A stretch of 64,000 nucleotides of DNA from Candidatus Nitrospira nitrosa (GTDB lineage Bacteria; Nitrospirota; Nitrospiria; Nitrospirales; Nitrospiraceae): NCBI RefSeq assembly GCF_001458735.1, contig NZ_CZQA01000012.1, positions 62,001-126,000 of the forward strand, in the 5' to 3' direction. Below are positions 45,797 to 52,463 of the stretch, one piece after another. Both the position numbers and the translations under genes were made by a program. Below the pieces are notes generated by a model that was given only the letters and a program-made list of their open reading frames with translations, had not been told where the DNA came from and ran no database searches. Every line of letters begins with the position of its first letter. Positions within the stretch are counted from its first letter, which is position 1.

Positions 45797-46459
45797 ATGA
45801 TGTCAACCCTCAGCACAATCGGAATCCGCCGCGCATGTTTGGTACTGGCATTACTGCTGACGATCGTGGTCGTGGCGCCGGCGGTGCACGCCGCGGATGG
45901 AAACCAGACGAAGTTCAAGCGAATACCGACACAGTACATCGCCGCATTGGGAGACCCGAGTGCGACCTCCGGAAATGGCGCGCAATTGTGGGGGCTGTGG
46001 CCACTGGATCCAGGGCCTCGAGGCGTGAAGCTAAACCGCTATCACTCGTTGAAGGAGGCCGGTGGCATCGCACCAGCACGCTGGAAATTCGACGAGACAG
46101 ACTGGTGGCTCGAAGAACATGGGTTGATCATGGAGCAACCGACCGTTCCGCTCCCTCCCGGGAAATATGTGGTCACGGGCGCCCGCAAGGTGACAGCCGT
46201 GCTGACGATTCATCCCGCCGACAGCCATGGCGACCGGCGCTGGGAGCTCAATCAAGGCGCGACACTCTATGATGTCACCCACCTCGCCTGCCGTTCCGCG
46301 CGCTATACACCGGAAGCAGCAGGTGGCTCCTGCTCCCCGGCCAGTGCGAAGCAGTCGGCCTTTCCCGTCGCGCCAGGAGGTGCCATGCCTCCGGTCGAGG
46401 GCTGCACAAAGCAAGACTATGCGGTCCTCATCGTGATCGGCATGGGCGTGGAAAACTGA
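45797..46459 (+). CDS. Secreted protein of unknown function
   Basis: 220 residues. The signal peptide has a strong hydrophobic core (LVLALLLTIVVVAPAVHA). The mature part begins ADGNQTKFKRIPTQYIAALGDP, carries WGLWPLDPGPRGVKL and the central WWLEEHGLIMEQP, and ends CTKQDYAVLIVIGMGVEN; three cysteines are C-terminal. No family recognised. A broken copy of its 3' end and downstream flank lies at 48950-49081, beyond the insertion sequence. Upstream, AAAGGA is a plausible but distant ribosome-binding site. Confidence 0.75.
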   Translation: MMSTLSTIGIRRACLVLALLLTIVVVAPAVHAADGNQTKFKRIPTQYIAALGDPSATSGNGAQLWGLWPLDPGPRGVKLNRYHSLKEAGGIAPARWKFDETDWWLEEHGLIMEQPTVPLPPGKYVVTGARKVTAVLTIHPADSHGDRRWELNQGATLYDVTHLACRSARYTPEAAGGSCSPASAKQSAFPVAPGGAMPPVEGCTKQDYAVLIVIGMGVEN

Positions 46460-46795
46460 ACTGCGGTGGCGCCTCGACAGCTTGCGCGGCGACTGCAATA
46501 AAAGACTCCCGCTATATTTATCCATCTGAAGCTACAGGTCGCATCCTCTGGCACGGCTTCATTCGCCAGCAGCTTGGCCACCGTCGGGGCTTGGTTCGAG
46601 GGAAACAGTCAGCCAGACCCGCGATGCTCCCGTCAGCCACGTGCGAGGTCTCCACCCCAACGAGCAAGCCGCTCACCCTGGTCCTTGCGAGTCATCAGAG
46701 GTTTGCTTTTTGTCTCTCCGGGACTACACAATAAGTCATACTCCTTGGCCTCCGCCATCCCGGCCACTATCAACAATCAACAACGAGGTGTCATC
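46460..46795. other. Intergenic stretch of about 335 bp
   Basis: No gene supported. The first 50 bases are partly conserved in the duplicate after 49081. A ribosome-binding site (CGAGGTG) lies at its right end, just before the next start. Confidence 0.4.
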
Positions 46796-47364: not shown

Positions 47365-48918
47365 CATCTCGAAGGCTCCGGTCAAGAGGGCACAGCCGAT
47401 CATGCCCTCCGTATCCTACAAACGGGGCGAGGTCTCCGACGACGTCTTCCCTCGCCATGGTGGTCGCGTGACTCCGTCGCATCCCGGTTGTCGTCGTCAG
47501 CAGTGTCAGCTCGGATTTGAGCCGCACCAGTCACCCATCAGGATCAAGGCGTGGGAGCGAGCCCCGTCGGGGATCCACTCCAGCCCCTGGCACCTCGTGC
47601 CCCAGACAACCGTCGGTTCCCGGCCGTGTCCAGCATACCTACGCACAGGACGTCTGGCTACCAGCGGGCTGGCGCCAACCCCATCATGGCTCACGGTCGA
47701 GGCGTCTCAGTCCCCACGCCAGTGGCGAGGGAGTTGAAGGGGGAAGACCGGGGCTAATCGGGAGTGCGAGGTGTGGCCTCAACCCCTTTGCGAGCTCCCA
47801 GCTCCCCCCAGCTCTGCCGCGCCTAGCCAAAAGCGCGGGACAGATCGAATGGCACCTGCGCACGGAGCATGTGATAGCAGGCCCGCGCCAATTTATGGGC
47901 CACGGCCTTCAGCGCCACAAGGGGATGCGTCCGTGCCTGCTTGCGCTGATAATACGTGCGAATCACGGCCTCATAGCGAATGGCGAAGTGCGCCGCCTCG
48001 ATGAACGCCCAGCTTAAATACTTGTTGCCGTTCTTCGTGTTGCCAGCCCCTTTGCGTTTGCCGTTACTCACATGTTCGCTGCCGACACAGCGACAGTAGG
48101 AGGCGAAGTGTCCCACGGTCGCAAACCGCCGCAGGTCACCGGCTTCCAGGAGAATGGTGCCCGCCAAGATCGGCCCGATGCCGGGGACGGTCTGTAAGAG
48201 CACATAGCCCGGCTGAGTCCGCCCCGCTTCCCGAACCGTGCCCTCAATCGTGTGAATCTCGTGCTCCAGACATTGCAGCACAGCCAACGAACTGCTGACC
48301 GATTGCACATGTTCGGGAAATGGCACAAGTGCCTGAATGCCCTCTGGGGTGAGCTGTCGAAGCCGAGGGAGGGAGAGCCGATTGCCAGTCAGTCGTGTCA
48401 GCAGGCTTTGTAGGCTCAGCACGACCATGGTCTTGTGCCGAACCAACTGACTGCGCTTCCGCAACAAGTCCCGCACGGCCCGTTCCGCTTTGGGGTAAAT
48501 GTACCCGGTAGGGAGCAAACCTAGCCGGAGTAAATGGGCTAACCACTGCGCATCGTGTTGATCGTCAACATGCTTGAGCCCACTATACTGCGGCAGGGCT
48601 GGTGCATGAGCGAGGTGGACCCGGTACCCTGCTTCCATGAGCCCGTCGACTAACCAGTACCAATTATAGGTGGACTCAACGACCACGCCCTGCAGCGTGG
48701 TCTGATACGGTGTTAAGGCCGTGAAGATCACGGCCAGGTCATTGCGGAGGCGTTTCTGATACAGCACTCGATCCGCTTCATCAATCACGACCAGCACACT
48801 ATTCGTGGCATGGAGATCAATGCCCGCATAACACATCATCGCAACCTCCTCGGTTAAAGTGGATGAGCCCGTCGCGTTAGCAACGACTCTACTCTTCAAG
48901 AGAGGAGCCTTCGAGATG
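47365..48918 (-). mobile_element. IS110-family element, IS1111-like organisation
   Basis: A 15-bp inverted repeat, CATCTCGAAGGCTCC, is found at 47365-47379 and in reverse at 48904-48918. It brackets a DEDD transposase gene read leftward. The arm before the gene is only about 80 bases, while the arm after it is about 460 bases, GC-rich and without a plausible gene. Subterminal inverted repeats and a long downstream non-coding arm are features of the IS1111 branch, where that arm is thought to encode the bridge RNA. The exact ends lie a few bases outside the repeats and no target duplication is expected. Confidence 0.75.
47823..48839 (-). CDS. IS110-family transposase (DEDD recombinase)
   Basis: 338 residues from the ATG at 48839, which has GAGGAGG five bases upstream. 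The N-terminal RuvC-like domain shows YAGIDLHATNS (first Asp), GVVVESTYNWYWL (Glu) and HVDDQHDAQWLAHLL (Asp pair). The C-terminal Transposase_20 domain has LLQTVPGIGPILAGTILLEAG and the Ser-containing FASYCRCVGSEH and GNKYLSWAFIEAA region. Length and all motifs appear intact, so it may be active. It recombines DNA as directed by a structured RNA from the element's own non-coding arm, as known for this family. Confidence 0.92.
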   Translation of the reverse strand: MMCYAGIDLHATNSVLVVIDEADRVLYQKRLRNDLAVIFTALTPYQTTLQGVVVESTYNWYWLVDGLMEAGYRVHLAHAPALPQYSGLKHVDDQHDAQWLAHLLRLGLLPTGYIYPKAERAVRDLLRKRSQLVRHKTMVVLSLQSLLTRLTGNRLSLPRLRQLTPEGIQALVPFPEHVQSVSSSLAVLQCLEHEIHTIEGTVREAGRTQPGYVLLQTVPGIGPILAGTILLEAGDLRRFATVGHFASYCRCVGSEHVSNGKRKGAGNTKNGNKYLSWAFIEAAHFAIRYEAVIRTYYQRKQARTHPLVALKAVAHKLARACYHMLRAQVPFDLSRAFG

Positions 48919-48949
48919 ATTATCGGGAGTCTTTCTTTATTGCCAACAC

Positions 48950-49081
48950 GCTATACTCTACGACGTGACCCATCTGGCCTGCCGTTCCGGTTGCACCAAG
49001 CGGAGCCAGGCCTCCGGTGGAAGGCTGCGGAATCAGGAGTATACGGTGCTCATTGTGATCGGTATGGGTGTGGAAGACTGA
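48950..49081 (+). pseudogene. 3' remnant of a duplicate of the secreted-protein gene at 45797
   Basis: The frame reads AILYDVTHLACRS at its start and YTVLIVIGMGVED at its end, matching TLYDVTHLACRS and YAVLIVIGMGVEN of the 45797-46459 product. The middle is shortened and contains a one-base deletion relative to the intact copy. Similarity continues about 50 bases beyond the stop. The 5' part is missing and the insertion sequence ends about 30 bases upstream, so the copy was truncated, probably by a rearrangement linked with the element. Confidence 0.8.
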
Positions 49082-49281
49082 ACCGCAGTGGCACACAAGC
49101 AACTTTCACGGTAAGCTCCATAACAGACTCCCAACGCATCTCCTACCTCTGATCAACCAACCAGAAACGGCATGGGTAAGGAGTATCAAATCAAAAGCGA
49201 GGCGCGGACGTCAACAATACTTCCAGCCACCTTATATTTTCATAGCACATGGAGAATAAATCAGACCTTCTTTAATCTAAT

Positions 49282-50829
49282 CTAGTGGTACCCGCCTCCA
49301 CCTCTATCATAAGTTCTCAACTTGTTCGGCACATAGCCGTCTACCTTATCGTCTATGAGAAAGGTGACGTCTGCCTCTGTTAGAGCCTGTACGGTTGGCT
49401 CATTATGGAGTTTCGCTGCTCGAACCCTATCTGTACACCAGCCTCGCCTATTTGCCTCATAGCCAAACAACCAATGCTCCTGTCGGAAGCAATCTTCAAT
49501 TAACCATGATTCCCAAATAGGAGACGAAAAATCTCCCACAAAAACGTTACGCCTTTTTGCTACCATAGCCGCTACCGCAACAAAGGCATCATCCATTCCC
49601 GCGATTGCCTGCTGTGCATCCTGAGATAATGTTATCCCCAGCTGCATTGCCGCCCAAATACTCCAAAGTATTTCACTGCCATGCCCAACTGGAGCACTGT
49701 TTATGATCAAGGATTCGATAGCCAAACTTGCGATTTCACCATCTGGCACATACGACACGCGATGTTTGTGTAGCAATAAGACATCAATCACAAATCTTAG
49801 ACAGCCGGGATCAAGCGCAACACTTTGCCATAAGAGAGTTTGAACAAGAGACCAGCACTTCTCTGTAGCCGTGATACCTTGAAGAGCAGCAATTGCATAT
49901 CTAAGTACGCCATCGGATTGGTGTTCCTTAGCGAGCATAAAGGCATGATTGAAGTAATCGATCCACTGAGATTTAGTCCCTCTAGTTAAAGTTGGGATAT
50001 GGCACCGAAGCTTTGTTACGTACTTACTTTCAAGCGTTTCAGGCAGTTCAAGGATTTCCGTTTTGTTCCCATTGAGCTGCAATTCATACTCATAAAGCAT
50101 TGATTCAAGTCGCGCTAGCGTGGCTTCGGCATCCGCCAACTTTTGAAAGCTGAATTCCATATCATCGATAAACCTCGCACCCCCCATGATCTGACACTCA
50201 TCGTCCAGACGCCTATCAATCGGCGCAAGAAGAAGCTCTGCCACACCCAACGAGGTGTCAGGTCCTATAGCCACGCCTTTTGTCTGACCAAATTGACAGG
50301 CTTGCAGTTCCTTATCCAAGACATTTCCCGCAAGACTCATATCATTGAAAGCAGTCTTAGCTACCTTTTTGGTATGAAGCGCCCAAGAAATGCTATGCGT
50401 GTAAATAGAAGGGTAAAACTGTGAGATATCAGCACGTAACAGGTAGCGAGCACCGATTCTCGCACTAGCTTTTGCAATGGCACGATCAGTTGGCTCATTA
50501 GCTATACCACGAGGGCCTTGCGGCGATATTCTTGGCAAAGTCTTTGAGAATGGAGACTTCTCCCATTCGGCCATCAGCAAATCACTATACCTGTCAAAAA
50601 CTTTGCCCAGCCGGAAGAAGTTTGCTGGATTTGGAACGGTCAATCGTCGTCTCAAGCCTCCAACCCGTGCTAGGTTATGGTAGGCTGGCTGTGTCCAATC
50701 TGCCTTTTCCTTTGTCATGCTTACGGGTAGATTGCTAGAAACTTTCCCAAGCCCTGCTAATGATTGTGATCCAAAGAGTGGTGGCAACTCCCGGGGTAGG
50801 TACCCGTAAGCAAGTAAAGCACTGAGCAT
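49282..50829 (-). CDS. Lone reverse transcriptase, candidate defence-type (unknown group)
   Basis: 515 residues; start supported by GAGG six bases upstream. N-terminus YGYLPRELPPLFGSQSLA. The polymerase core is intact: motif A LRADISQFYPSI (Asp134), motif B QTKGVAIGPDTSLGVAELLL, motif C ARFIDDMEF (Asp222, Asp223), motif D LQLNGNKTEIL. Residues 270-515 are a mainly helical region that I cannot assign. It lacks the maturase and endonuclease parts of group II intron proteins, and no msr/msd-like retron repeat is obvious. Similar stand-alone enzymes in the unknown-group (UG/DRT) classes act against phages. A+T content looks higher than in its neighbours. Short hairpins precede it. Confidence 0.85.
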   Translation of the reverse strand: MLSALLAYGYLPRELPPLFGSQSLAGLGKVSSNLPVSMTKEKADWTQPAYHNLARVGGLRRRLTVPNPANFFRLGKVFDRYSDLLMAEWEKSPFSKTLPRISPQGPRGIANEPTDRAIAKASARIGARYLLRADISQFYPSIYTHSISWALHTKKVAKTAFNDMSLAGNVLDKELQACQFGQTKGVAIGPDTSLGVAELLLAPIDRRLDDECQIMGGARFIDDMEFSFQKLADAEATLARLESMLYEYELQLNGNKTEILELPETLESKYVTKLRCHIPTLTRGTKSQWIDYFNHAFMLAKEHQSDGVLRYAIAALQGITATEKCWSLVQTLLWQSVALDPGCLRFVIDVLLLHKHRVSYVPDGEIASLAIESLIINSAPVGHGSEILWSIWAAMQLGITLSQDAQQAIAGMDDAFVAVAAMVAKRRNVFVGDFSSPIWESWLIEDCFRQEHWLFGYEANRRGWCTDRVRAAKLHNEPTVQALTEADVTFLIDDKVDGYVPNKLRTYDRGGGGYH

Positions 50830-51165
50830 TCACTACCTCAGAAACAGACCTCTGCACCTCACCTGAGACACACTTCGATAGCTACGCACTACAAAGTGGG
50901 AGAAGCTTCAGAATTGCCGCGTGGCAACGCTGATATGCTCAGCGTCAATGCTTCAACTTGTCACAACGCGGCCTCCAGTCCACATTTGCGTCACTATTCT
51001 ATCTTTAGTCGCTCATCTGAAACATTCGTAGAATCTCTCCTACTCTCAAAACAGTAGAATCAGGGGAAAGGCATACCCCCTTTTGCATAGGAATGCAAGA
51101 ATTCGTAGCCTTGGTGGGAGTGGGAAAGATGACCCAGGCTTCAACCGATAGTGCAGCGAGACCCA
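50830..51165 (-). ncRNA. Possible structured RNA upstream of the reverse transcriptase
   Basis: 336 bases lie between rlmI and the reverse transcriptase gene without a plausible ORF. Two adjacent perfect hairpins sit at 50914-50927 (TTGCC/GGCAA) and 50927-50945 (ACGCTGA/TCAGCGT). A third lies at 51083-51098 (TTGCAT/ATGCAA). Several defence reverse transcriptases use a non-coding RNA encoded just upstream, so this could be such a template or partner RNA. The length of any transcript is unknown, and simple leader hairpins are the alternative. Confidence 0.35.
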
Positions 51166-52353
51166 CTACAACACCTGCACAATGAAGCACTTCAAATACC
51201 GCGTTTCCGGCATGCTGCCGAGGATGGGATGGTCAGGGCTCTGGCCTCGCTGTTCGATGAGTCGAATATCGCGTTTTGCGTCGCGGGCGGCAAGGCGAAT
51301 GCTCTTCCAGAGATCTTCTTCCGAGACGGGATGGGAGCAGGAACTGGTGACGAGAAACCCTTCTGGCTTGAGCAGCTTCATTCCCAAGAGGTTGACGTCT
51401 TTATACCCGGTCAAGGCGCCGGCCAGGGCCTGTTGACTGCGAGCAAATGCCGGGGGATCCAGCATCACCACATCGTAACGCTTCCCTGCTTTCACCAGCT
51501 TACGCATCTCCTCGAAGGCATCGGCTTGGCGATAAGTGCATCGATCCTCCACCTTGTTCATTGCGGCATGTGCTCGGGCCATGGCCAGTGTGTCTTGACT
51601 GACATCGAGGCCCTCCACTGATACCGCTCCGGCGAGCGCGGCATGAATGCCAAATGCGCCGGTATGGCAGAACACCTCCAGCACATCGGCCCCTGCCGTG
51701 AGCTTGGCTGCTGCCAGCCGGTTCTCTCGTTGATCGCAAAACCAACCGGTCTTCTGCCCCTTCTCCACATCGACGAGAAACTTCGCGCCCCCCTCCTGAA
51801 TCTCAACTTGCGTCGGGCCACTGCCTCGAAGAAATCCTCGTTCGAGTGGCAACCCTTCAAGTTGGCGACTTTTGGCTTCGTTCCGTAGATAGACTCGTGT
51901 CAGACCCAATTCCTTCATCAGCACGTCCGCTATGAGTTCCTTGCGGCTATCCATCCCAAACGAGAGACACTGCATCACCAGCAGCTGATCGTACCGATCC
52001 ACGATCAACCCGGGCAGTCGATCGCCTTCGGCATAAATAAGCCGATAAGCATTGGACTGCGAGACGACTCGCTGCCGCAGGCGGATGGCTTGCTGGATTC
52101 TTCCTCGCCAGAACGTCTCATCGATAGATTCATCCTCGAATGTCAGGAGGCGGACACGAATTTTGGACGCAGGATTATAGAGGCCACGTCCGTAGAATTG
52201 TCCGCTGGGGGTCAGGACATCGACCAAATCCCCGGCGATTGCCTCACCGACAAGCGGTCCGACATGCCCGGCATAGAGCCACAGATGCCGACTCTCTGAA
52301 CCGCGTGCAGGCGTGAGGCGAACGTGAGCCGTCGGTGTCATATCATGTTTCAT
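51166..52353 (-). CDS. rlmI: Class I rRNA methyltransferase (RlmI family)
   Basis: 395 residues from the ATG at 52353 (in-frame starts exist at 52404 and 52341). An N-terminal PUA domain is seen (VRLTPARGSESRHLWLYAGHV, GQFYGRGLYNP), then the EEHEE-type middle (YAEGDRLPGLIVDRYD) and the SAM domain: KTGWFCDQRENR, VLEVFCHTGAFGIHAA, LDPPAFARS and SSCSHPVSEED. Members methylate C5 of a cytosine in 23S rRNA; the E. coli enzyme acts at C1962. The catalytic cysteine is probably in the SSCSHP motif. Confidence 0.92.
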   Translation of the reverse strand: MKHDMTPTAHVRLTPARGSESRHLWLYAGHVGPLVGEAIAGDLVDVLTPSGQFYGRGLYNPASKIRVRLLTFEDESIDETFWRGRIQQAIRLRQRVVSQSNAYRLIYAEGDRLPGLIVDRYDQLLVMQCLSFGMDSRKELIADVLMKELGLTRVYLRNEAKSRQLEGLPLERGFLRGSGPTQVEIQEGGAKFLVDVEKGQKTGWFCDQRENRLAAAKLTAGADVLEVFCHTGAFGIHAALAGAVSVEGLDVSQDTLAMARAHAAMNKVEDRCTYRQADAFEEMRKLVKAGKRYDVVMLDPPAFARSQQALAGALTGYKDVNLLGMKLLKPEGFLVTSSCSHPVSEEDLWKSIRLAARDAKRDIRLIEQRGQSPDHPILGSMPETRYLKCFIVQVL

Positions 52354-52463
52354 AACGATGGTTACCTCTAAGCTGGGACGTGGGTGGTCACATACCGACC
52401 ACAATGCATCACTGGTCGTCCGGTTGTTCTTGACGAATGGACATCAGTATGTTTTCTTGAATA

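Follow-up and report, generated by a model that had tools for sequence, protein, structure and literature searches.

A divergent DRT6 (UG12) reverse transcriptase in a variable site of a Nitrospiraceae genome

The locus and its surroundings

The window analysed here, a stretch of 64,000 nucleotides (64 kb) from Candidatus Nitrospira nitrosa (contig NZ_CZQA01000012.1, positions 62,001 to 126,000), encodes a stand-alone reverse transcriptase (RT) on its minus strand. The gene, its parts and its immediate neighbours are, in window coordinates:

47823-48899, minus strand: IS110-family transposase
48949-49092: gene remnant, a degenerate copy (79-83%) of 46258-46470
49282-50829, minus strand: DRT6 (UG12) reverse transcriptase, 515 aa, full length (open reading frame, PADLOC Drt6, AlphaFold2 match to 9wy8)
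49972-50829, minus strand: RT palm and fingers, residues 1-286, with motif A Asp134 and motif C FIDD at 220-223 (secondary structure of the model, conservation, Pfam RVT_1)
49327-49971, minus strand: all-helical C-terminal domain of the alpha-Rep type, residues 287-501 (all-helical in the model; aligned with DRT6, DRT4 and AbiK over its whole length)
49285-49326, minus strand: disordered C-terminal tail, residues 502-515, with the penultimate Tyr514 as proposed DNA primer (pLDDT, Tyr enrichment; primer role by analogy with DRT3b)
50830-51165, minus strand: upstream intergenic stretch of 336 bases (no evidence for a functional RNA from fold, hairpins, conservation or Rfam)
51166-52404: PUA/SAM-methyltransferase gene (RlmI-like), which the RT gene follows

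The RT gene starts with ATG and its frame is open over 515 aa. The catalytic Asp triad of motifs A and C is intact, comprising Asp134 and, within FIDD, Asp222 and Asp223. Among 66 aligned homologues D134, Y143, T144, H145, W149, D222 and K256 are invariant, while D223 varies once. The N-terminal GYLPRELPP segment, named in the original prediction along with Asp134 and the FIDD motif and found as stated there, is also conserved: G9, P12 and E14, followed by F19, each reach at least 90% in these homologues, as does D223. An AlphaFold2 model built on the 66-sequence alignment has a mean pLDDT of 93.8 and a pTM of 0.93. Residues 1-500 are folded confidently, and pLDDT drops below 50 only at residues 505-515.

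The insertion sequence and the gene remnant lie beside the RT as originally described. A dead or dying gene, caught between these two elements, is one explanation that such a setting invites, and the homologues are too distant, with no close relative for comparison, to gauge selection. The full-length open frame, the retained catalytic residues and the confidently folded residues 1-500 speak against decay, which is extremely unlikely; the RT is taken to be ordinary and intact. The source of the remnant is the gene at 45797-46459, which belongs to a family without a Pfam match, and more partial copies of the duplicated stretch occur near the cargo of relatives.

The RlmI-like gene is carried by 72 of 79 genomes of the same genus. 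In a comparison of the window with ten loci of relatives (L134, L136 and L151-L158), similarity spans this gene and ends at its stop codon (51160-51166), so that those loci lack both the RT and the 336 bases. Their cargo at this position includes an nSTAND3 ATPase, an SF1-type helicase, an HNH endonuclease, proteases and transposase-like genes. The G+C content of the RT gene is 0.45-0.47, against 0.55-0.60 in its surroundings. The RT, low in G+C, counts as cargo of a variable site and was apparently transferred horizontally, and the site behind the RlmI-like gene (48900-51166 in the window, and the same ten loci) resembles an insertion hotspot that carries defence genes. In L136, L152 and L157 the 3' end of the RlmI-like gene recurs close to the cargo as direct repeats of 94-215 bp with 78-85% identity.

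Within the window, the neighbours of the RT are not defence genes. Related RTs adjoin type I restriction genes in L015 and in the case of the UG15-like L009, and in L014 the neighbour is a candidate defence protein. In Thalassotalea (L015, 1859-11529) the RT lies inside a type I restriction-modification operon that contains hsdM, hsdS, the RT, a DUF4268 gene, a Schlafen AlbA_2 gene and an HsdR-like frame. A distant relative (27% identity) on Agrobacterium and Sinorhizobium plasmids (L004 and L005 1096-6677) occupies the third position in an apparent operon, behind an AAA ATPase and an ATP-dependent helicase that form a Gabija-like pair. Across the flanks of 45 homologous loci no constant partner gene was found, and defence and housekeeping genes are scattered among them, as expected of a single-gene system.

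Family placement by profile, fold and tree

The only Pfam match of the RT protein is the generic RVT_1 at residues 113-261, which is why its C-terminal half had looked unassigned. In PADLOC the best match is Drt6 (PDLC03748), with 475.6 bits and an E value of 5e-143 over residues 2-499 of 515. Models labelled Drt4 come second at 426 and 372 bits, and the UG15-type Drt4 models PDLC03752 and PDLC02178 give 203-236 bits (PDLC03752, 235.9). Two controls frame these numbers. The solved DRT6, scanned with its sequence as printed in an alignment, scores 594.5 bits with Drt6 against 252.4 with PDLC03752; the UG15-like protein L009 from a related genome reverses the pattern, with 313.8 for Drt6 and 464 for PDLC03752. 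On these sequence profiles the window RT (475.6 against 235.9) follows the DRT6 scoring pattern. The PADLOC labels Drt4 and Drt6 themselves overlap, since the solved DRT6 9wy8 has its best match, at 716 bits, with a model labelled Drt4 (PDLC02177 and PDLC02179 are concerned). The DRT3b (UG8) profile of PADLOC gives the window RT only 110 bits.

Foldseek returned 9wy8, annotated as "hexameric DRT6", as the best match of the model. This entry is a DRT6 hexamer solved by cryo-EM (Wang et al., 2025, Biochem Biophys Res Commun, as cited in PMC13314766). VIA-align superposes the two end to end, with a Z of 41.6 and an rmsd of 2.1 Å over 487 residues. DRT4 (UG15) structures, represented by PDB 9vdo, 9vdv and 9l9s, follow at Z 34.3 and 31.7, then AbiK at 26.5 and Abi-P2 at 23.3. 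After these there is a marked fall, with RTs from group II introns, DGRs and retrons at Z 15 and less. The order of this ranking, with DRT6, DRT4, AbiK and Abi-P2 foremost, identifies the C-terminal half as the helical alpha-Rep domain of class 1 UG/Abi RTs; the original prediction had taken it to match nothing known.

An RT of the retron or group II intron type was considered and rejected. The curated models are far below their cut-offs (36.5 against 300 for the group II RT/maturase TIGR04416, and 37.4 against 235 for the retron St85 RT), and such structures align at Z 11-15, compared with 41.6 for DRT6.

A tree of 92 proteins, drawn with a single solved DRT6 and without a published set of UG references, separates UG15: the solved UG15 protein falls in a separate, starred clade. 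The window RT joins proteins from Pseudomonas graminis, at 54% identity, and Thalassotalea, at 46%; the SH-aLRT values are 98 and 100. The other Nitrospira DRT6 (L078) does not group with it, a pattern that indicates horizontal transfer. A scan of viral contigs with the single RT protein gave no relatives, and the same scan with a four-sequence alignment gave 31.

Assignment to DRT4 (UG15) would leave the chemistry the same and change the family name. It could draw on the two Drt4-labelled PADLOC models and on the second place of the DRT4 structures, which share the RT and helical domain with the window RT; DRT4 is also, in review accounts, a single gene that makes untemplated single-stranded DNA (ssDNA). 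Fold and profile scores are weaker for DRT4, however, and the UG15-type models score the window RT as low as they score the solved DRT6. The NCBIfam Drt4 model reaches 206 of the 450 bits needed, below its curated cut-off, and UG15 keeps its own clade outside that of the window RT. The DRT4 name is very unlikely to be the right one.

By profile and fold, the protein is a divergent member of the DRT6 (UG12) family in a Nitrospiraceae genome. It shares with 9wy8 the domain order, the fold and the PADLOC profile pattern, but the two are only 28% identical and the window RT sits on a separate branch. A stand-alone RT of the defence-associated UG/DRT class, distinct from intron and retron RTs, had been predicted and is borne out; the suggestion that it might be a new member of that class gives way to a named family with a solved structure.

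The 336 bases upstream of the RT gene

The original prediction suggested that the RT could have its own RNA, encoded in the 336 bases before the gene, which were said to contain several perfect hairpins and no open reading frame (ORF). Such a class 2-like DRT would use the upstream ncRNA to template or scaffold DNA synthesis. The stretch is missing in relatives without the RT and could have arrived together with it. It does contain two perfect Watson-Crick hairpins: one at 51098-51083, with 6 bp and a 4-nt loop, and one at 50945-50927, with 7 bp and a 5-nt loop, which is the first part of the stem previously placed at 50945-50914. Both stems are real, yet two perfect hairpins of at least 6 bp, where dinucleotide shuffles lead to an expectation of 0.37, are barely above chance (P 0.057), and 7.9% of 336-base windows of the 64 kb have equally many. 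The absence of an ORF is nearly right, the one overlap being a mechanical GTG ORF of 61 codons at 51005-51190.

Other evidence does not favour an RNA. Folding of the strand gives a z of -0.32 relative to shuffles, 34 of 100 of which fold equally well, and Rfam returns no match for the stretch even at E 1. A search with nhmmer of the 600 bases 5' of homologues finds only the sequence itself at E 10, and homologues with protein identities of 54% and 46% conserve none of the stems. The source genome has a single copy of the stretch, and 171 other genomes of the family have none; a search of plasmid DNA with the gene and the upstream stretch as query gave no match. The 385 bases 3' of the gene show no likeness to the downstream sequence of homologues, and promoter and terminator counts around the gene are not above those of shuffles.

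Several relatives also lack the physical room for such an RNA. In 31 of 87 homologous loci, no more than 100 nt separate the RT start from the end of an ORF of at least 150 aa, and in the Thalassotalea operon (46% identity) the RT starts 3 nt past hsdS and is followed by the next gene after 2-3 nt. The fold, moreover, is that of class 1, and the members of this class studied so far work without a template RNA; DRT4 and DRT6 are described as single-gene systems without an ncRNA (PMC13213688). A companion RNA in the upstream stretch is not supported and an RT that depends on one is very unlikely. With identity to the nearest homologue no higher than 54%, a small chance is left for an RNA specific to this lineage.

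Protein priming and the proposed mode of action

Class 1 UG RTs synthesize DNA without a nucleic acid template, sometimes primed by a residue of the protein (PMC13174585; PMC9508834). AbiK and Abi-P2, whose class 1 fold the window RT shares, carry out untemplated, protein-primed synthesis from Tyr44/Tyr61 in an N-terminal loop (PMC9508834). An AbiK-like priming loop was considered for the window RT and rejected: Tyr50, which occupies that place, is replaced in most homologues, and, unlike in AbiK and Abi-P2, the family has no conserved Tyr in the loop.

Tyrosine is instead enriched at the other end of the protein. With homologues grouped into 47 clusters at 60% identity, and kinship remaining between clusters ignored, 15 clusters have Tyr as their final residue, against 1.8 expected, and 27 have one within the last five residues, against 8.4 expected. 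Among ORFs of at least 300 aa from the same loci, 7% end in Tyr. In the window RT it is the penultimate residue (514 of 515), in the disordered tail. The proven primer of DRT3b is likewise near-terminal (Tyr666 of 667), and C-terminal residues also prime in DRT9 and DRT10. DRT3b differs in having DRT3a and an ncRNA as partners, whereas no second RT gene was found within the 64-kb window. Given the enrichment and these precedents, Tyr514 is proposed as the DNA primer.

For the family, the corresponding proposal is that DRT6 proteins prime from a Tyr that ends a disordered C-terminal tail or stands next to its end, like DRT3b and not from an AbiK-type loop, and that the product might have a sequence bias dictated by the protein. 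The odds on this proposal are about even, and part of it may already be published. Priming of this kind cannot be universal, because the last 30 residues are free of Tyr in 5 of the 47 clusters.

The reading that best accounts for the locus, which we hold at roughly 90%, is that of an antiphage system consisting of one gene, a class 1 DRT6 (UG12) gained by horizontal transfer. By analogy with its relatives, the RT protein would probably assemble as a hexamer and make ssDNA without a nucleic acid template, primed covalently from a hydroxyl of the protein itself, most likely that of Tyr514 in the flexible tail. A companion RNA would not be needed. Reviews of published work name the phage DNA-binding protein ORF55 as the trigger in DRT4 and DRT6, leading to accumulation of a toxic product. 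A phage protein could act similarly here by protecting or promoting the DNA product, whose toxic accumulation would abort the infection. Product or trigger may differ from those of the solved DRT6, since the proteins share only 28% identity.

The locus extends the DRT6 family, with its still poorly resolved DNA product, by a divergent Nitrospiraceae member, and removes the upstream RNA as a false lead. For the DRT6 family, the question of whether the Tyr at the C-terminal end serves as the DNA primer becomes sharply testable.
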